Part shown: piece after piece, positions 46,903 to 56,085 of the stretch
Numbering within the stretch: the first letter of the stretch is position 1
Layout of the letters: every line of letters begins with the position of its first letter
From: Terriglobia bacterium
Lineage (GTDB): Bacteria; Acidobacteriota; Terriglobia; Bryobacterales; Bryobacteraceae
Direction: 5' to 3'
Length of the DNA stretch: 64,000 nucleotides
NCBI GenBank assembly: GCA_020073145.1
Contig: JAIQFS010000016.1
Location: 1 to 64,000 of the forward strand
Made by a program: the position numbers and the translations under genes
The notes under the pieces: generated by a model
What the model was told of the DNA's origin: nothing
Databases searched by the model: none
What the model saw: the letters and a program-made list of their open reading frames with translations, nothing else

Positions 46903-47271
46903 CTACCGCTGCTGCTGCAGCATGACTTCGAACTTCTGGCGCTGTTGCTGAGTGAGGACTTGTTCCACGCGGGTTTTGCTGTCGCTGAGCACGGTGCGGT
47001 AATACTGCCACATGTCGTTGAGGATGGATTGCACCTGCTCGGCCTGAACCGGCGTGAGGTCGAGCTCCTTCTGCACTTTTTCAAAGTTGATGGTTTTGCC
47101 GGCGGCAGTATCGAAAGAAGGCTGATGGAGGCGGTTATGGACGCCGAGGTTCATGGCCAGAGCGCCAGCGGCGGCCCCGCACAGGAAAACCAGCGCCAAG
47201 GCCAGGGTGGCGGCCAACCGGGGATCCCAACCCCGCCCGAGCGTCGGCCGCTCCAGGAGGTTAGTGCTCAT
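46903..47271 (-). CDS. CpxP/Spy-like periplasmic protein with membrane anchor
   Basis: This 122-residue protein has one N-terminal helix (LAATLALALVFLCGAAAGALA) and an LTxxQ-type module: LDLTPVQAEQVQSIL followed by helices to QQQRQKFEVMLQQQR. This fits the Spy/CpxP heavy-metal and envelope-stress family (periplasmic sensor or chaperone). It overlaps the end of the anti-sigma gene by 11 bases. With the adjacent ECF sigma and anti-sigma genes it probably belongs to an envelope-stress response. Confidence 0.75.
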   Translation of the reverse strand: MSTNLLERPTLGRGWDPRLAATLALALVFLCGAAAGALAMNLGVHNRLHQPSFDTAAGKTINFEKVQKELDLTPVQAEQVQSILNDMWQYYRTVLSDSKTRVEQVLTQQQRQKFEVMLQQQR

Positions 47272-47722
47272 AGGCGGTCAGACTCACTAGCATGTTGTCC
47301 TGGGCCGGCGCGGAATCGAAAGAAGGAGACTCCTGTTGCGCCATGACGGTTTCCGGGGAAGGGCCGGTGGAGTACGCTGTTTCACGGGAAACGAAATAGC
47401 CGCCCAATACCGCTAAAGTTAATAGCGAGGAAAACACCAAGCGGCGTCCAAAGGCAAAATCCAGTCCCAACAAGCTTGCCACCGAAGGCGTCGGATGCCG
47501 CGATTCCACCTGCTGCCGGACGCGCGCATAAAAGCCGGCTCCCGGGACGATGGGTTCTTCCGAACGCAGCGACCCAAAGCAGAGCGAGACTTCCTGCATG
47601 GAACGGATTTCGGTGCGGCAGGACTCGCACGCGTTCAGATGGGCATCAACGGTTCGTTGAGCCGCCGGCTCCAGCGCGCCGGCAAGGTACTCCTCAAGGC
47701 TCTGCATCACTACCGCATGCAT
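47261..47722 (-). CDS. Anti-sigma factor with zinc-finger (ZAS-like) domain
   Basis: This 153-residue protein has an N-terminal zinc-binding anti-sigma motif, HLNACESC (H-x3-C-x2-C) with a His/Glu earlier in the helix, followed by a single membrane helix (RLVFSSLLTLAVLGGYFV, about residues 90-108) and a short periplasmic tail. I start at the ATG at 47722, after GGGAAG; a TTG at 47740 is possible. It should bind the sigma factor encoded 99 bases upstream and hold it at the membrane. Confidence 0.85.
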   Translation of the reverse strand: MHAVVMQSLEEYLAGALEPAAQRTVDAHLNACESCRTEIRSMQEVSLCFGSLRSEEPIVPGAGFYARVRQQVESRHPTPSVASLLGLDFAFGRRLVFSSLLTLAVLGGYFVSRETAYSTGPSPETVMAQQESPSFDSAPAQDNMLVSLTAYEH

Positions 47723-47820
47723 ACGTTTCTTCCCTTGCAAATGTTACCTATACTACACCCAATCCTGCCCCCTGCGGATCTTTTGCCGTCACCGGCCGCC
47801 CGCTCAGAGGTACTACCTAC

Positions 47821-48486
47821 CTATCCGGCCACCAGGCCGGGACTTCGATCCAGACGCTGGGCGGCCTTCACCAATTTCTGCCGAGCCCGGAAGAGTTTGA
47901 CTTTTACGGTGTTTTCGTTCATTCCGGTACGAGCCGCCAGCTCTTCCACGGAATACCCTTCTACTTCCTTCAGAATCAATAACATGCGTTCCTCTTCGGA
48001 GACGCGCGTGAGGAGTTTCAGGACATAATCGCGCTGCGCCAGGCTGGAATCTGCCGGAATCTGCCTTTCGACGGCCGGATCGGTGTTTTCAACCCGCCGG
48101 ACTTCTTCTTCGCTCAAATCGCTTTCGTAGACCAGCCTCCGCACTTTCCGCTTGCGGAGATAATCGAAGCACTCGTTGACGGTGATTTTATAAATCCAAG
48201 TAATCAGGGAGCTGCGGAAGTCGAAGTTTCGGAGGGACAGGTAGACTTTGGCAAATACTTGCTGTGCAATGTCTTCCACGTCATTACGCTGGCGCACGAT
48301 GCCGTGAATGATGGAAAACACCTTGGACTGGTAGCGTTCGACGATCTCGCGAAATGCGGTTTCATCGCCGGATTGCGCCCGCTGAACCAAGGCCCCTTCC
48401 GGGGTGTTCTGATAATCCACTCTCGAGTTTGCGGCCGCTTTGCTACCGAATGCCGGGAGTGGCAGCGCGCCCGTCAGGGTTCCCAT
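47821..48486 (-). CDS. ECF RNA polymerase sigma factor
   Basis: This 221-residue sigma factor has region 2 (FREIVERYQSKVFSII, then DVEDIAQQVFAKVYLSL and WIYKITVNECFDYLRKR) and region 4 (EERMLLILKEVEGYSVEELA, TVKVKLFRARQKL), as in ECF sigma factors. A ~35-residue N-terminal extension precedes region 2. The anti-sigma gene follows on the same strand. The signal sensed is unknown; neighbours point to the cell envelope. Confidence 0.92.
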   Translation of the reverse strand: MGTLTGALPLPAFGSKAAANSRVDYQNTPEGALVQRAQSGDETAFREIVERYQSKVFSIIHGIVRQRNDVEDIAQQVFAKVYLSLRNFDFRSSLITWIYKITVNECFDYLRKRKVRRLVYESDLSEEEVRRVENTDPAVERQIPADSSLAQRDYVLKLLTRVSEEERMLLILKEVEGYSVEELAARTGMNENTVKVKLFRARQKLVKAAQRLDRSPGLVAG

Positions 48487-49193: not shown

Positions 49194-51338
49194 ATGAAAG
49201 GCGGAGGCGCGAGCCTGGTCCGCAATGCGGCGCTGGCGTCCGGGCTGATGATGGCCTGGCAGGTGGCGTCCAAGACCATCCGCGACAGCCTTTTTCTCAC
49301 GGCGTTCGATGCTCGCGCGTTGCCCGCCATGGCGGGGAGCGCGGCGGTCAGCGCGGTATTGCTGGCGGTGGTCAGCGCGAAGCTGTTGCACCGCTTCGGG
49401 CCGTTTCGGGTAATTCCGGCCGGGTATCTGTTGAGCATGGGCCTGCACGCGGCAGAATTTCTGCTGCTGCCGGCTTTTCCGCGCCCGATGTCGGTTCTGA
49501 TTTACCTGCATGTGGTGGCGTTGGGGTCGGTGCTGCTCTCGGGGTTTTGGGCGCTGGCCAACGAGAGTTTCGATCCCCTGGAGGCGCGCCGGCGGTTCGG
49601 GCGCATTGCGGGCTTTGGCACGCTCGGCGGTCTGGGGGGCGGTCTGATGATGTACGCCATCGCACCGCTGCTCGCGCCTTCCACCTGGTTGTTGTTTTTG
49701 TTGGCATTGCAATTGGTGTGCGGGGTGGTGCTGGTGCGCCTGCCGCAACCGAAGTCCGGGGCGGATCGCGCCGAGACTCCGCCGCTGACCAAGGCCTTGG
49801 CGGGCGCGCCGTACTTGCTGGCGGTGGCGGGCCTGGTGGCCCTGGTCAATATGGCGGCAGCCGCGCTGGATTTTCTGTTCAAGGCGCAAGCCCAGGCGCA
49901 TATCGGCCGCGGCGTGGCGCTCACCCAGTTTCTGGCTCTGTTCTGGGTGGTGACCTCGATTTCGAGTTTTGTGGCGCAGACCGGGGCCAGTCAATTCTGG
50001 CTGAATCGCTTCGGCCTGGCGCGCACGGTGGCCACGCTGCCGGTGGGGGTGGCGGGGGCCAGCCTGCTGGCGCTGATTTCGCCAGGAGCGATTGTGCTGG
50101 GATTGACGCGCGCGTGGGAGCAGACGCTGCGCGGGTCGTTGTTCCGCTCCGGGTACGAGCTGTTCTACGCGCCCATGCCGGAAGCCGAGAAGCGATCGGT
50201 GAAATCGGTGATCGATATTGGCGCGGACCGGGCGGGCGATGGGACGGGCTATGCGGCGGTGCAGCTGATCCTGAACGTGCCGGCGGCGGCGGTGCCCTAC
50301 TGCATTCTGGCGCTGGTGGCGGCGGTATCGGGGATGGCCGCATGGCTCTCGTTCCGGTTGGACCGCGCGTACTCGCTGGTGATCCAGAAAAATCTGGCGA
50401 ACAATGCGAAGGACCTGAAGCCGGCGGAGGTGGAGGAATTGACGATGGTCTTCCGCACGGCGCCGGGGTCGGCCACGCTGCCGCTGGATTCCGGGCTGAC
50501 GGACGCGCAGATGCAGCAGCTCACCCAACTGCGTTCGAGCGATCCGCGTCGCGTGAAAGAGGCCTTGCGCGAGATGGGGATGCTGGACCCGATTCTGGTC
50601 CCGCAGGTGATCCGCTTGTTGGCCTCCGACAGCGTGTGCCGGGCGGCGCACGCGGCGCTGTCGCGCGCTACCTTTCGCATTGCGGGGCAGTTGGCGGATG
50701 CGCTGCTCGACGAAAGCCTGGATTATGCGGTCCGCCGGCGCATCCCCCGCCTGCTGGCGACCTGCGAAACGCACCGGGCGTGGGACGGGTTGTTTGAGGG
50801 CCTCAACGATCCGAAGTTCGAATTGCGGTTCCGGTGCAGCCGCGGGCTGGAAGGGATGCTGCTGCGGCATCCGGATTTCCGGCCGGAGCCCGCGGTGATC
50901 TACCGGCTGGTGGAACGCGAACTTTCCGTGAGCCGGCGCGAGTGGCAAGGCCGGCAGCCTCGGGGCGTGGAGGAAGAAAGCGTTCCGGCGGACGGGGACG
51001 CGGCGGCGGAGGAGCCGGTTTCGCACAGCCTGGCGCACGTCTTTGCCCTGCTCGCCCTGGTGCTGCCGCGGGAGGCGGTGCGGACGGCGTTCCGGGCGCT
51101 GCACACCGACGACTCGCGGCTGCGCGCGCTGGCGGTGGAGTATCTGGGCAGTTCGCTGCCGCGCGAGATTCGCGACCGCTTGTGTGAGCGTATCGAATTA
51201 TCGCCGCCGGGGAAGAAGGAAACACTGTCGCAGCGGGTGTTGGGGAATCCGGCTGCGGCCGGTTCATCGACCACGGAACGGCCGGAAGATGCCGGCACGC
51301 CGCGCGAAGAAGGCAAGAGGAGAGGGGCGGGCTCGTAG
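49194..51338 (+). CDS. NTT-like membrane translocator with C-terminal HEAT-like domain
   Basis: This 714-residue protein has about 12 membrane helices (residues ~5-420) in the nucleotide transporter (NTT/TLC) or MFS-like pattern, e.g. ASKTIRDSLFLTAFDARALP near the start, which resembles the NTT 'K..RD.LFL' segment. The C-terminal ~300 residues are cytosolic alpha-helical repeats (AQMQQLTQLRSSDPRRVKEA, YAVRRRIPRLLATCETHRAW, SRLRALAVEYLGSSL), HEAT-like. Known NTT proteins exchange ATP, ADP or nucleotides. The start at 49194 follows AGGAAC; a GTG further upstream is unlikely. It converges with a second NTT-like gene 44 bases away. Confidence 0.65.
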   Translation: MKGGGASLVRNAALASGLMMAWQVASKTIRDSLFLTAFDARALPAMAGSAAVSAVLLAVVSAKLLHRFGPFRVIPAGYLLSMGLHAAEFLLLPAFPRPMSVLIYLHVVALGSVLLSGFWALANESFDPLEARRRFGRIAGFGTLGGLGGGLMMYAIAPLLAPSTWLLFLLALQLVCGVVLVRLPQPKSGADRAETPPLTKALAGAPYLLAVAGLVALVNMAAAALDFLFKAQAQAHIGRGVALTQFLALFWVVTSISSFVAQTGASQFWLNRFGLARTVATLPVGVAGASLLALISPGAIVLGLTRAWEQTLRGSLFRSGYELFYAPMPEAEKRSVKSVIDIGADRAGDGTGYAAVQLILNVPAAAVPYCILALVAAVSGMAAWLSFRLDRAYSLVIQKNLANNAKDLKPAEVEELTMVFRTAPGSATLPLDSGLTDAQMQQLTQLRSSDPRRVKEALREMGMLDPILVPQVIRLLASDSVCRAAHAALSRATFRIAGQLADALLDESLDYAVRRRIPRLLATCETHRAWDGLFEGLNDPKFELRFRCSRGLEGMLLRHPDFRPEPAVIYRLVERELSVSRREWQGRQPRGVEEESVPADGDAAAEEPVSHSLAHVFALLALVLPREAVRTAFRALHTDDSRLRALAVEYLGSSLPREIRDRLCERIELSPPGKKETLSQRVLGNPAAAGSSTTERPEDAGTPREEGKRRGAGS

Positions 51339-51382
51339 AGCTTTGACGGCACGCAGTCCGAGAAGCACGCGGGTGTGGGGCG

Positions 51383-52735
51383 CTAGGCCGGGGCGGCGCC
51401 TTCGGCGGCGGTGAGTTTGCGGTGCTGGCGGATCACGCCGTAGGCCAGCAGCAGCCAGAGGGCGACGGCTGTGATGTTGAAGGCGGCCATTCCGCGGATT
51501 CCGACGTGCAGGAGCACTGCTGCCAAGACGGTGAGGCTGGAGAGCACATCACCGAAGCGGACGCAGAACGTGTCAATGGCCTGCTTAGCTTTGTACTTGG
51601 CTTCGCGGCTGGTGGGCAAGTAGAGGGCCCCGCGAACGGTGTTCATGAGCGAGTAGTCGGTGCTGTTCTCGAGCACCTTCGCTCCCCAGATGACGGCGAA
51701 GACGGGAGCGCCGGCGATGAGCGAGTAACTGCACAGCGCGATGGCTGGCAGCACCAGCAGGGAACCGCGCACCCCCAGATATTTGAAGACGCGGGAAACC
51801 AGGAAGAACTGGATGAGCAAAGCCAGCAGGTTTTGCCAGAACTGGAAATCGGCCGCATAGGTTCCGAGCAGGTTGGTTTCGGAAAGGCCGCCGGCGGTCC
51901 CGTGCGCCACGGCCTGCCGCGCGGCCTGGGTGAAGATCTTGTCGCGCATGTATTCGCCATTGCTGTTGACCAGGTTGAGGGTGAGAATGAGCAGCGCGAT
52001 AAAGAGCAGATACCGTTGGCGGTGGATCAGGCGGAAGGCGCCCTCTCTGGCCAAGGGCTGCTCCACCTCTTTCTGGCGGACGACGTCGTGAATCCGCCGC
52101 TTTTCGCGGCGATGAATGACGTTGGTGAGCAACAGGCACGCCACCAGGATGGCGGCGGAGACCAACATTAGTTCATAGACGCCCAGAGATTTGACCGCCA
52201 GCGCGGTGATGCCGGCCCCGGCCACGCCACCAACGGAAGCGCCCACGCCGATGATGGGGAAGAGCCGTTTGCCCTGATCGGTTGTGTACAAGTCATTGGC
52301 GAACGACCACAACTGGGCCACCACCATGTTGTTGAAGATGCTCACCCACACAAAGAAGGCGATGCCGAGCGGGACGTGAATCTGGCTGAGGAGATAGAAG
52401 ATCACCAGGTTGGACGCGAAGAACAGGAAGACGCAATTGATCAGCCGGATGCGGTTCACCTTGCTCGCCACCGTGCCATACGCCGGGACCAGGAACAACA
52501 GGAGCACGGCCTGGAATCCGCTGCTGTAGCTTTTGAGCTCGGCGCCGCCGCCGGTGAGGATGAGAGCCTCGCGCACCGGTTTGATGATGTAGTAGGCGGT
52601 GAGCAGCAGGAACAGGTTGGCGGTGAGCAACAGGGCGGTAAGGCCCTCTTGGGCGTGGACTTCGGCGACGACATTCAACAGGCGTTCGTGCCAGGCTTTT
52701 CCGCCCGGCGAGGCCTGCACGGTTGCTGTCGCCAT
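51383..52735 (-). CDS. NTT/TLC-family nucleotide translocator
   Basis: This 450-residue protein has about 12 membrane helices and the NTT signature near the N-terminus (AYYIIKPVREALILTGGG, about residues 45-62), plus the WSFANDLYTTDQGKRLFP and STDYSLMNTVRGALYLPTSR segments of the family. It starts four bases after AGGAGGAG. NTT proteins are best known from obligate intracellular bacteria and plastids as ATP/ADP exchangers, but related genes occur in free-living bacteria, with unknown substrates. The start at 52735 was chosen by ribosome binding site. It is convergent with the gene at 49194. Confidence 0.78.
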   Translation of the reverse strand: MATATVQASPGGKAWHERLLNVVAEVHAQEGLTALLLTANLFLLLTAYYIIKPVREALILTGGGAELKSYSSGFQAVLLLFLVPAYGTVASKVNRIRLINCVFLFFASNLVIFYLLSQIHVPLGIAFFVWVSIFNNMVVAQLWSFANDLYTTDQGKRLFPIIGVGASVGGVAGAGITALAVKSLGVYELMLVSAAILVACLLLTNVIHRREKRRIHDVVRQKEVEQPLAREGAFRLIHRQRYLLFIALLILTLNLVNSNGEYMRDKIFTQAARQAVAHGTAGGLSETNLLGTYAADFQFWQNLLALLIQFFLVSRVFKYLGVRGSLLVLPAIALCSYSLIAGAPVFAVIWGAKVLENSTDYSLMNTVRGALYLPTSREAKYKAKQAIDTFCVRFGDVLSSLTVLAAVLLHVGIRGMAAFNITAVALWLLLAYGVIRQHRKLTAAEGAAPA

Positions 52736-52949
52736 TGCTCTCCTCCTGTGACGCCCGGGTGGCTTGGTGTTCCGCGAGCGCTCGAGTCCCCGCCTCACAG
52801 GGGCTGAAATTGGACGGGCTGAAATCAGCCCCAGTGGCGGCTCCCGTACCGGCCGCTTTGGTTTCGAACGCCAGTGGGAGATATGCTACCACAGTGATCC
52901 GGGCATGTTAGACTCTTCTGACATGCGCGGGGCGCACAGAAAGGCGATT

Positions 52950-53792
52950 ATGCGGATCTCTCGACAGGGCCTGCGGCTAGCGGCGGCGGGCACACTTCTT
53001 CTCCCGGCCTTGGTGTGGGGGCCGGCCCGGCTGCGCGCGGCGGATGCGGGGCAGAGTCTGACCTCGGAACAAAAGGAGGAATTCCTTCGGAACGCGCACA
53101 TCGAGCAAGAGAAGGACGCGAAGAAGGGCGTCACCCAGACGTTACGGATCACGCTCAGCGACGGCAAAATGACTCACGATGCCAGCGTGCAGCGGATCAA
53201 CGAATCGAAAGCCGTCTTTCAGGCGCAGGACGGCACGTCGGAATTCAACTTCAAGGACACCTACAAATTCAACATTGCGGCCTGGAAACTGGCTCGCTTG
53301 CTGGGGATCGACGACATGACCCCTCCGTCGGTGGAGCGCAAGTATCGGGGCGATCCCGCCGCATTCACATGGTGGGTTGACGACGTTCTGATGGACGAGG
53401 AGACGCGCAGCAAGCAGAAGGCGAGCGCTCCGAACACCGACGCCTGGAACCAGGAGATGTACGTAGTCCGCGTGTTCGACCAGCTCATTTTCAACACGGA
53501 CCGCAACCTGACTAATCTGCTGATCGACAAGCAATGGCACATTTGGATGATCGACCACAGCCGGGCGTTCCGGATGCGGCACGATCTGCGGGAATCCAAG
53601 AACCTGGTCCAGTGCGACCGCAACCTGCTGGCGAAGATGAAGACGCTGGATCAAGCCACGCTCAAGAAAGAACTCACGCCGTATCTGAACGGTGAAGAAA
53701 TCAAGGGCCTGCTGGCGCGGCGCGACGCGATTGTCAAATTCTTCGAGGCCAAAGGGGAGAGCGCTCTCTACAACCGTCCGCCTCGGACGTGA
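52950..53792 (+). CDS. Secreted protein-kinase-like (PI3/4K- or FAM20-like) protein
   Basis: The 280-residue protein begins at an ATG at 52950 with an AAAGG site and a signal peptide (residues ~6-31). The body has a kinase-like C-lobe: FNTDRNLTNLL (catalytic-loop Asp 184 and metal-binding Asn 189) and WMIDHSRAF (Asp 202, in the place of the DFG Asp). Upstream lies AAWKLARLLGIDDMTPPSVER, a common helix in this group, and candidate lysines lie before it. The two ATPs of a secreted kinase would need a supply in the periplasm. Ends with a helix (IKGLLARRDAIVKFFEAKGE). Kinase activity is inferred from motifs. Confidence 0.6.
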   Translation: MRISRQGLRLAAAGTLLLPALVWGPARLRAADAGQSLTSEQKEEFLRNAHIEQEKDAKKGVTQTLRITLSDGKMTHDASVQRINESKAVFQAQDGTSEFNFKDTYKFNIAAWKLARLLGIDDMTPPSVERKYRGDPAAFTWWVDDVLMDEETRSKQKASAPNTDAWNQEMYVVRVFDQLIFNTDRNLTNLLIDKQWHIWMIDHSRAFRMRHDLRESKNLVQCDRNLLAKMKTLDQATLKKELTPYLNGEEIKGLLARRDAIVKFFEAKGESALYNRPPRT

Positions 53793-53794
53793 CG

Positions 53795-54910
53795 CTATTT
53801 CTCGACGAAGTCCGGCACGGCCCTGCCCTCGATCAGAGTCTCGATCGGGGATGGCGGCGGATCGAGAGCGGCGGCCGCTTTCAGGTAGGGCAAGGGGTCT
53901 ACGCCATCCACCGGTAAATCGAGTTGGTGGCCGCGGTACAGGGCATAGAACTTCGGTCCCTCGATGATCAGCAGCGCCGGGGGCCCTCCATATACTTTCG
54001 AAAGTCCGACATCGATGGTAATGACTCTACCGCCAAAGCGCGGCAGGATCGCGGGCCGCACGGTGTGGCCGATCACCAGGTAGCGGGCTCCGAGATTCTG
54101 GAGCACGCGATCGACGTGTTCCAATAGGCTGCTCTCGGGGCCTTGCGCCAGTCCCCGGTACCAGAGCGGGCCTTCGTCATCGGCCGTCATGCCGTTTTGC
54201 AGTTTCGAAAAATCGTTGAGTTCGGCCTGGATGGTCTGATTGATTTCAGCAAGGGTGCGGGAGGCGTATTTCGGGCCGATGCCGCCGTGCAGGAACACGA
54301 CGTCGTTGATGCGAACGATGGCGTTGTGCTGGCGCAGCCACTTGCCGTATTTGCCCTGGGGGGAGAAGGCCTGCAAATGCTCCACCCAGCCCAGCGGGTG
54401 TTCCTGATCGAAGGTTCGGCGGAAGGCCTCGGGGTCGGCGGGCGGCGTACCTTTTTTCTTCAAAGCGTCGAGGGTCAACTGGAAGTACTGGTCGCGCAGG
54501 TACTCCGAATTCCCATCGCGGTAGGAGGCAAACTCCTCCTTGGAGACGTAGCGCAGGTCGCCATACAGGTTCATGGTCTCGTGATTGCCGAGGAGGGCGT
54601 GGACGCGGCCGCCGGCCTTTTGCGCCTGCGGCTCCAACTCCATGAGCAAGTCCATGACTTTGCGCGAGTCGGGCCCGCGGTCGAGCACGTCGCCAGTCTG
54701 GACCAGGTGGGTCTTGCCGCCGATCCATTTGCCTTTGCGGTCGATGACCCGGGCGGTTTGCAACAGGCTGATGAACTGGGTGTAGTCTCCGTGGATGTCG
54801 CCCACGGCCACTACCCGCTGGACATCCGGAAAGGTATCCTGGGCGCGTCCGGGCAAGCTGAGGATGAGGGGAAGGAGCAGCAGACCGCCAATGTTTCGAC
54901 TGTAAACCAT
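53795..54910 (-). CDS. Secreted calcineurin-like metallophosphoesterase
   Basis: This 371-residue protein starts at the ATG at 54910 with a signal peptide (LLLLPLILSLPGRAQ). All metallophosphoesterase motifs are present: VAVGDIHGDY, TGDVLDRGPDS, LLGNHETMN, FLHGGIGP and VIGHTVRP. These bind a dinuclear metal centre. It should cleave phosphate esters outside the cytoplasm. Its stop lies two bases from that of the convergent kinase-like gene. Possible partner of that gene as the opposing activity; this is inference. Confidence 0.9.
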   Translation of the reverse strand: MVYSRNIGGLLLLPLILSLPGRAQDTFPDVQRVVAVGDIHGDYTQFISLLQTARVIDRKGKWIGGKTHLVQTGDVLDRGPDSRKVMDLLMELEPQAQKAGGRVHALLGNHETMNLYGDLRYVSKEEFASYRDGNSEYLRDQYFQLTLDALKKKGTPPADPEAFRRTFDQEHPLGWVEHLQAFSPQGKYGKWLRQHNAIVRINDVVFLHGGIGPKYASRTLAEINQTIQAELNDFSKLQNGMTADDEGPLWYRGLAQGPESSLLEHVDRVLQNLGARYLVIGHTVRPAILPRFGGRVITIDVGLSKVYGGPPALLIIEGPKFYALYRGHQLDLPVDGVDPLPYLKAAAALDPPPSPIETLIEGRAVPDFVEK

Positions 54911-55035: not shown

Positions 55036-56085
55036 ATGCGGCTTAGCCTGGTGGTGCTGTTGGCGGGCTTGTTCGGGGGCGGCGTCTCTCAGGCGCAGCA
55101 GGTGATTTCCGCTCATGCGGGCGTGGTTCATCACATTGAGGGAACGGTATACGTGGGCGCTGTGAAAGTGGCGCCGAAATTTGGCCAGTTTCCAGACCTG
55201 CGTGATGGCGAACTGCTGCGTACCGAGGACGGCAAAGCCGAAGTGCTCCTCACCCCGGGAGCTTTTCTCAGAGTCGCGGCCAACAGCTCCGTGCGCATGC
55301 TGTCGCGCGATCTGTCCGATGCCCGCTTTGAAGTGCTCAGCGGTTCGGTCATGGTGGAGTGCGACGAATTGCTCAAGGACAACTCGCTCACTCTGGTCTA
55401 CGGCAGCCGGAACATTCAACTCGAGAAGGATGGCTTGTACCGGCTGGATACGGATCCGGCCCGGTTTCAGGTGTTCGACGGCAAGGCCGTGGTGCAGTCC
55501 GGAACCGAACGGTTGACGCTCAAGCGCGGTAAACAGACCGACCTCGACGGCGTGCTGGTGGCTTCGAAGTTCAACACCAAGCTGGTCGATCCTTTCTACG
55601 TTTGGAACAGCCAGCGGGCGGGCTATCTGGCTTCGGCGAATGTGTCGGCCGCGCAGTCGCTGCGGTACGGCGGGACCTCGTGGACATCGAGCGGTTGGAT
55701 GTGGAATCCCTGGTTCAACGCCTATACCTTTGTCCCCGGGAACGGGATTGGATACAGCCCCTTCGGCTGGAACTTGTGGAGCCCGGCCTGGGTGGTGTAT
55801 GCGCCGGTCTATGGGTACGGCGGCTACGGTGGCTACGGGCGTCCAGTGACCAACGGAAATCCGGGCAGCGTCACGGCGGGCAACAACGGCAGGCAATCCG
55901 TGGGGAACGGAGGTTCCAGCAATCCCCCCGTTTCCCGGGGCTCCTCGCCCCCTTCGGCGGCGCGGCCCAACTTTGGCGGCGGGTTCGGCGGCGGATCGTC
56001 GTCCGGAGGTTTCTCGGGTGGCGGTATCAGTTCCGGCAGCAGTTCGGGTGGCGTTCGGTCGGGCGGAGCACCGCACTCCCGGTAG
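55036..56085 (+). CDS. Secreted FecR-like protein with Gly/Ser-rich tail
   Basis: This 349-residue protein starts at an ATG at 55036 with a signal peptide (cleaved near SQAQ). Residues ~30-175 form a FecR-type beta fold (VYVGAVKVAPKFGQF, LLRTEDGKAEVLLTPG, VRMLSRDLSDARFEVLSG, RLTLKRGKQTDLDG). After a Trp/Tyr-rich middle (YVWNSQRAGYL, SSGWMWNPWFNAYTFVPG) comes a low-complexity Gly/Ser/Pro tail from about residue 270. Here there is no sigma gene next to it, so a regulatory role as in FecR is unlikely; a structural envelope role fits better. Confidence 0.7.
   Translation: MRLSLVVLLAGLFGGGVSQAQQVISAHAGVVHHIEGTVYVGAVKVAPKFGQFPDLRDGELLRTEDGKAEVLLTPGAFLRVAANSSVRMLSRDLSDARFEVLSGSVMVECDELLKDNSLTLVYGSRNIQLEKDGLYRLDTDPARFQVFDGKAVVQSGTERLTLKRGKQTDLDGVLVASKFNTKLVDPFYVWNSQRAGYLASANVSAAQSLRYGGTSWTSSGWMWNPWFNAYTFVPGNGIGYSPFGWNLWSPAWVVYAPVYGYGGYGGYGRPVTNGNPGSVTAGNNGRQSVGNGGSSNPPVSRGSSPPSAARPNFGGGFGGGSSSGGFSGGGISSGSSSGGVRSGGAPHSR

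Follow-up and report, generated by a model that had tools for sequence, protein, structure and literature searches.

Four neighbouring genes at positions 49194-54910 of a 64,000-nucleotide stretch of Terriglobia DNA (the window; positions 1 to 64,000 of contig JAIQFS010000016.1, part of a 6.3 Mb genome) probably form an extracytoplasmic module for reversible phosphorylation, fed by a relative of the NTT nucleotide translocators. The NTT-related inner-membrane proteins would pass nucleotide, most likely ATP, into the periplasm, where an exported FAM20-like kinase would use it to phosphorylate secreted or envelope proteins; the PPP phosphatase, likewise exported, would take the phosphate off again. 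The computed basis consists of the genes themselves, their N-terminal export signals, a predicted FAM20-like fold, conserved active-site residues in kinase and phosphatase, the phylum-wide linkage of the three families, and the repeated joining or splitting of the kinase and phosphatase genes. From these we infer the direction and substrate of transport, the use of ATP, protein as the target, and activity of kinases that carry Gln81 and Asn108. A first-pass annotation had suggested an extracytoplasmic phosphorylation module at this place; the suggestion is supported by genome evidence from well beyond the window, and the linkage and repeated fusion go further than what was originally proposed.

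The interval holds the following features:

49194..51338, plus strand: P0001, NTT-like (TLC) membrane protein, 714 aa; PF03219 at 21.5 bits (cut-off 21)
51383..52735, minus strand: P0002, relative of NTT-like nucleotide translocators, 450 aa; PF03219 at 53.3 bits
52736..52949, no strand: intergenic region between the divergent P0002 and kinase genes, 214 bases, read from the sequence
52950..53792, plus strand: P0003, predicted exported FAM20-like kinase-fold protein, 280 aa; signal peptide at about residues 1-31, by eye
53795..54910, minus strand: P0004, predicted exported Shewanella-like PPP phosphatase, 371 aa; N-terminal signal peptide, by eye

The four genes fill the interval and lie exactly where the first-pass annotation had placed them, and both proteins that it had called NTT-like translocators reach the PF03219 cut-off. 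The P0001 and P0002 genes converge. The P0002 and kinase genes are divergent with starts 214 bases apart, and the region between them is a possible shared promoter region. The kinase and phosphatase genes are convergent rather than an operon, as had been noted, with a gap of 2 bases between their stop codons.

Linkage of the three gene families and fusion of kinase and phosphatase

Co-occurrence of the families in Acidobacteriota had been set beforehand as a test of the module, and it was found. In a class sample of 220 evenly drawn genomes, for which the best candidates per genome were scored (at most 12 for the kinase, 7 for PPP and 4 for NTT) and copy numbers are lower bounds, the kinase is present in 32. 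The phosphatase occurs in 30/32 genomes with the kinase versus 10/188 without it, and an NTT relative in 32/32 versus 25/188 (Fisher p 4e-26 and 3e-23, respectively, at genome level and not corrected for kinship). Counted by hand at the genus level, the corresponding figures are 18/20 versus 5/67 for PPP and 20/20 versus 18/67 for NTT (p 3e-12 and 1e-9, computed without a species tree). Across the phylum the kinase was found in 58 of 297 genomes.

The families are also physically linked. Within 10 kb of a kinase gene, 24 of the 32 genomes have a PPP gene, 22 an NTT gene, 19 both and 27 at least one; counted by kinase copy, a PPP partner lies within this distance for 28/50 and an NTT partner for 25/50. 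Of 61 relatives, 12 have the kinase, 17 the phosphatase (including 10 of the 12 with the kinase) and 21 a P0002 relative. Kinase and phosphatase share a contig within a few kb in G000 (the window genome), G009, G015, G025, G027 and G037, and an NTT gene is near the kinase only in the window and in G004, about 5 kb away. Relatives of P0001 adjoin a P0002 relative in G015 (C204), G004 (C326) and locus L100, and at L104 the phosphatase sits between the two.

A locus search with the single kinase sequence returned no loci. The search with a kinase alignment gave 79 other loci, drawn from the 80 best among 120 candidates; contig ends cut many of them short. By tblastn, their fetched flanks contain PPP in 29 cases, an NTT relative in 24, both in 16 and either in 37. 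Clustering of neighbours over 80 loci, the window included, likewise returned phosphatase (30) and NTT (25) as the commonest families, followed by a small secreted protein (18/80) and a cluster with a histidine kinase as its scanned member (12/80); these clusters are single-linkage and partly impure, with short open reading frames (ORFs) in the NTT cluster, and the tblastn counts are firmer. The small secreted protein has a sub-threshold DUF5666 match. It stands between kinase and phosphatase in L123, L125, L127, L150 and L151 and is a candidate substrate or partner.

The strongest sign of joint function is the repeated joining or splitting of the kinase and phosphatase genes. At L179-L182 the two form a single open frame of 731-742 codons, and at L180-L182 an NTT-HEAT gene directly follows it. 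Twenty loci of the phylum sample comprise 10 that are fused, 14 with the phosphatase and 11 with an NTT relative, although some were picked for long open frames and the fused fraction is not a rate. The fused loci number 14 in all, and in 12 of them the fetched stretch contains an NTT relative. Several loci of the class sample, which were likewise selected in part for long open frames, repeat contigs of the 79-locus set. Mapped on the kinase tree, the fusion state changed at least six times, three of these changes being forced by well-supported branches. At L209:4769-7945 there is a phosphatase-kinase frame of 1059 codons in which about 420 residues precede the phosphatase domain.

A chance or hitch-hiking neighbourhood without functional link could be argued from the window, where the genes are not one operon, and from the same genome's other two kinase copies, which lie elsewhere. 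That 27 of the 32 kinase genomes show linkage to PPP or NTT, that fusion occurs in several lineages and that presence and absence are concordant between genera makes this explanation practically negligible.

A strongly hydrophobic N-terminal stretch is found in 126/130 kinase ORFs that are not fused to PPP and in 53/55 phosphatase ORFs, in a set that includes repeated contigs. A twin-arginine-like motif, recognised by eye, is present in the two phosphatase ORFs and in one of the four kinase ORFs that lack such a stretch. The measure is a crude hydrophobicity count and not a trained predictor; 68/143 other neighbour ORFs, a control set that includes membrane proteins, pass it as well.

Fold and active site of the kinase

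P0003 stays below the cut-off of every Pfam and NCBIfam model, with weak matches to HipA_2, ABC1 and PI3/PI4 kinase. The 22 family members scanned against Pfam at E<=0.1 match PI3/PI4 kinase in 15 cases, ABC1 in 13, HipA_2 in 13 and Fam20C (PF06702) in 5, the last with a best E of 0.0016; P0003 itself has no Fam20C match at this threshold, and CotH is absent from the ten Pfam families matched. A search of the PDB with the single kinase sequence gave one unrelated weak match only, while profiles of 22 and 72 members have FAM20A as their top solved structure, at weak E values of 5e-5 and 7e-5.

The AlphaFold2 model of residues 31-280 has a mean predicted local distance difference test score (pLDDT) of 95.2 and a predicted template modelling score (pTM) of 0.92. 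Foldseek alone lists PI4K and PI3K entries first, with poor root-mean-square deviation (rmsd). VIA-align, run on the Foldseek candidates, places FAM20 entries in the first six rows, led by hydra Fam20 5xoo (Z 19.8, rmsd 3.5, 232 residues) and including FAM20C (18.6), a second hydra Fam20 (18.5) and FAM20A (17.8), with PI4K II (17.7), CtkA (15.9), HipA (11.9) and CotH (11.1) below. The lead of 5xoo over PI4K II is 2 Z units, and FAM20A ties with PI4K II. The 280-residue protein is predicted to have a kinase fold, as the first-pass annotation had supposed, and one of the FAM20/PI4K type. HipA, CtkA, CotH and PI4K were rejected as its closest kin on their lower Z and may still be relatives; CotH spore-coat kinases share the common bacterial kinase fold with a similarity far below that of FAM20.

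The resemblance to the animal secretory-pathway kinases FAM20A, FAM20B and FAM20C extends over 228-234 of 250 residues and includes export, an acidic residue at the position of FAM20C E306, the catalytic Asp, a DFG-type Asp and the weak profile match. Sequence identity is, however, 16-19%, and an Asn (N189) lies five residues past the catalytic Asp. The mature P0003 has a single cysteine (C222) and lacks the conserved FAM20 disulfide pattern (named in the title of PMC5413348). Its Gln81, at the beta-3 position, also departs from the phosphate-binding lysines of FAM20; R66 may, by its spacing, correspond to FAM20C K271. Judged by Pfam match, lysines and disulfides, the kinase falls outside the FAM20 family.

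Residues D103, D184, N189, D202, R205, F207 and R208 are identical in 80/80 proteins (the window protein and 79 relatives). In the window kinase, sequence alignment maps Gln81 to the beta-3 Lys position and Asn108 to the alpha-C Glu position; these equivalences, and that of position 103 with FAM20C E306, are inferred from gapless alignment and spacing. Position 103 was placed through the gapless IAAY/IAAF segment, where the HMMER alignment instead puts a two-residue gap. The first-pass annotation had described a kinase-fold protein with a signal peptide and intact catalytic residues: D184, N189 and D202 are indeed kept, whereas the beta-3 Lys and alpha-C Glu are replaced.

A wider set of 143 distinct kinases keeps D202 in 143/143, D184 in 134/143 and N189 in 133/143. 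Thirty-seven of them, a sister clade of the window's, have Lys/Arg81 with Glu/Asp108, 105 are Gln/Asn-like and one is uncalled; 16 rows are gapped at position 81, of which 15 were taken as Lys for their WKN motif and the 16th is the uncalled one. The Lys/Glu and Gln/Asn types are split by one branch with 99% support in the Shimodaira-Hasegawa-like approximate likelihood ratio test (SH-aLRT), on a tree built by a quick method with this support measure only and with columns 81 and 108 kept in the alignment. A repeated compensatory origin of the Gln81/Asn108 pair is unsupported; on the tree the pair switched once. The residue at the position of FAM20C E306 and ceFam20 E213 (PMC5865150) is D103 in the window protein and acidic in 142/143.

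It is possible, though unlikely, that in this clade the kinase-like domain acts as a pseudokinase, which would bind nucleotide or a partner and steer the phosphatase without phosphate transfer. One large clade has Gln for Lys at 81 and Asn for Glu at 108 as fixed exchanges, which speaks for it, and fusion to a phosphatase would fit a regulatory domain. So do L199, L201, L205, L213 and L214 speak for it, where the catalytic loop is disturbed in a kinase domain fused or adjacent to PPP but intact in tandem copies. A precedent exists in FAM20A, described in PMC5413348 and PMC7948968 as a pseudokinase that activates FAM20C. FAM20A owes its pseudokinase state partly to a Gln in place of the acidic residue at E306 (PMC5865150, PMC7948968). 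This acidic residue appears to be retained in the present kinase, in which the beta-3 Lys position is Gln, and the invariance of D103, D184, N189 and D202 in all 80 proteins likewise argues against loss of activity. Moreover, the window genome (G000) has three kinase copies, all of the Gln/Asn type; a fourth copy, whether of the Lys/Glu or any other type, did not appear at E<=1e-20 among the 12 of 19 candidates scored. If the Gln/Asn type were dead, the phosphatase and NTT of this genome would be left without a kinase of this family.

The two further copies, C2:86263-87039 (L002) and C25:23170-23994 (L003), are 67-71% identical; the one on C2 is near a gene that by eye resembles one for an ABC-transporter ATPase. 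Several kinase copies also lie clustered at L199, L200, L201, L205, L213, L214 and L215. There the copy adjacent or fused to the phosphatase has the disturbed loop (YDQCLDQDD-like) and the tandem copies look intact, an arrangement reminiscent of the FAM20A/FAM20C pair.

An active kinase could also have a target other than protein, namely a glycan or another envelope polymer, in the manner of FAM20B on xylose, from which the phosphatase would then remove the phosphate. The top structural match is a hydra Fam20 with sugar, labelled glycosaminoglycan xylosylkinase (Z 19.8 versus 18.6 for FAM20C). Asp103 also corresponds to hydra Fam20 Asp152, which takes the E306 position and is ion-paired with a Lys (PMC5865150), and bacterial PPPs can be broad in specificity (PMC535813). 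The second hydra Fam20 entry (18.5), however, ties with FAM20C, an identity of 16-19% is no predictor of substrate, and the closest solved relative of the phosphatase is a protein-tyrosine phosphatase. We regard a glycan target as rather improbable.

A phage or plasmid origin of the kinase is not supported, because no relative was found in viral contigs (the phages collection lay outside the search) and plasmids gave one weak partial match (27.6% over 54% of the query).

Phosphatase, transporters and the weight of the evidence

The first-pass annotation had recognised a secreted metallophosphoesterase in P0004, and this identification stands. The protein matches Metallophos in Pfam and is homologous to the Shewanella protein-tyrosine phosphatase 2z72/1v73 (phmmer E 4.2e-45). 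Residues D38, H40, D74, N109, H208 and H282, which we take to be the PPP metal-site motif residues and metal ligands, are invariant in 21/21 aligned phosphatases. By sequence relation and metal-site motifs P0004 belongs to the Shewanella-like PPP phosphatases (Shelph/SLP), from which its family differs in being exported and linked or fused to a kinase. PMC535813 names the group Shewanella-like phosphatases and holds that specificity cannot be predicted without experiment and may be broad in bacterial PPPs.

P0002 is related to the solved ADP,ATP carriers 9j3n (phmmer E 2.4e-08) and 9j3j, and the profile of module NTTs matches 9j3n with E 1.4e-31. The module proteins share the TLC domain with NTT ATP/ADP translocases and, in their long forms, HEAT repeats with NTT-HEAT fusions. 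These repeats are strong in the three long proteins scanned (L135, L151, L153), and the C-terminal part of P0001 has a weak HEAT_2 match (21.8 bits, below the cut-off of 27.7). NTT-HEAT proteins are widespread and uncharacterised, their function being called unknown in PMC5381601. At L153:5410-9096, an NTT-HEAT protein with C-terminal cyclic-nucleotide-binding domains adjoins the kinase gene, which suggests regulated transport.

Four charged residues of AtNTT1, K155, E245, E385 and K527, are important for ATP/ADP transport (PMC4256464). The corresponding residues are R/S/E/R in P0002 and R/V/D/Y in P0001, with columns placed from the 9j3n and profile alignments plus AtNTT1 context. The four exchange residues of the translocases are thus mostly replaced in module NTTs. 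The family assignment behind the earlier statement that NTT proteins move ATP or other nucleotides holds, but the residues key to ATP/ADP transport have mostly changed. For this reason ATP supply by the module NTTs is plausible but no firmer than that, and another nucleotide or metabolite could be the cargo.

The changed transport residues would also suit a system of nucleotide handling, in which the NTT moves a nucleotide or phosphorylated metabolite, the PPP hydrolyses it outside in an ApaH-like manner and the kinase-like protein acts on small molecules. P0004 does have matches to ApaH-type models, all below cut-off. ApaH entries, however, match it at only about 2e-3, against 4e-45 for the Shewanella phosphatase, and the FAM20-like fold is not known as that of nucleoside kinases. 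Such a system is very unlikely.

Several observations weigh against a phosphorylation module supplied by NTT proteins. Position 81 is Gln in 76/80 and Lys in 0/80 of the window's clade, as position 108 is Asn in 74/80 and Glu in 0/80, and among 20 aligned module NTTs none has an acidic residue at 245, Lys155 or Lys527, and none has all four transport residues. Linkage is incomplete: 22/50 kinase copies lack a PPP gene and 25/50 an NTT gene within 10 kb (some on short contigs), and the other two kinase copies of the window genome (L002, L003) have neither within this distance. The NTT relatives in 25/188 kinase-free genomes imply that these proteins have other uses. Finally, the PPP match contains an in-frame stop in G088, G099, G107, G111, G127, G223 and G232, all genomes with the kinase. 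Some of these matches overrun the gene end, but the gene of G107 (L189) is split between frames; the matches in G088, G172 and G195 are pieces at contig ends.

Known systems and neighbouring genes

The module may work in the manner of animal FAM20, to which ATP is supplied in the lumen. ATP import into the endoplasmic reticulum by SLC35B1/AXER likewise relies on a membrane transporter, which provides enzymes beyond the cytosol with ATP (PMC12267056, PMC6113206), in that case in a eukaryotic organelle. To our knowledge, no standing periplasmic phosphorylation system is known in bacteria, partly because no ATP is expected there. The transporter family of SLC35B1/AXER is unrelated to NTT. A search of open-licence PMC full text on FAM20-like and exported or periplasmic kinases, NTT, phosphatase and ATP import gave no paper on the module among the matches listed.

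We tentatively propose that Acidobacteriota possess a dedicated system of reversible extracytoplasmic protein phosphorylation, with a FAM20-type kinase, a phosphatase of its own, sometimes on the same polypeptide, and its own NTT or NTT-HEAT nucleotide exporter, and that the kinase of one large clade uses Gln-Asn instead of Lys-Glu; this broader claim is quite possible rather than probable. The conserved combination of exported kinase, exported phosphatase and NTT relative makes periplasmic phosphorylation directly testable. If true, the proposal would give a first function to the widespread NTT-HEAT proteins (uncharacterised according to PMC5381601). The combination also broadens the search for bacterial kin of the animal kinases of the secretory pathway.

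Two further observations concern the surroundings of the module in the window. Beside the phosphatase gene, at 55036-56085 on the plus strand, lies a gene whose product looks exported, has a Gly/Ser-rich tail and matches FecR below threshold; it shared no cluster with the neighbours of other kinase loci in the neighbour clustering. Upstream of the module, on the other strand (46903-48486, minus), Pfam identifies an extracytoplasmic function (ECF) sigma factor, followed downstream by two genes whose products by eye resemble a zinc-finger anti-sigma factor and a small protein anchored in the membrane.

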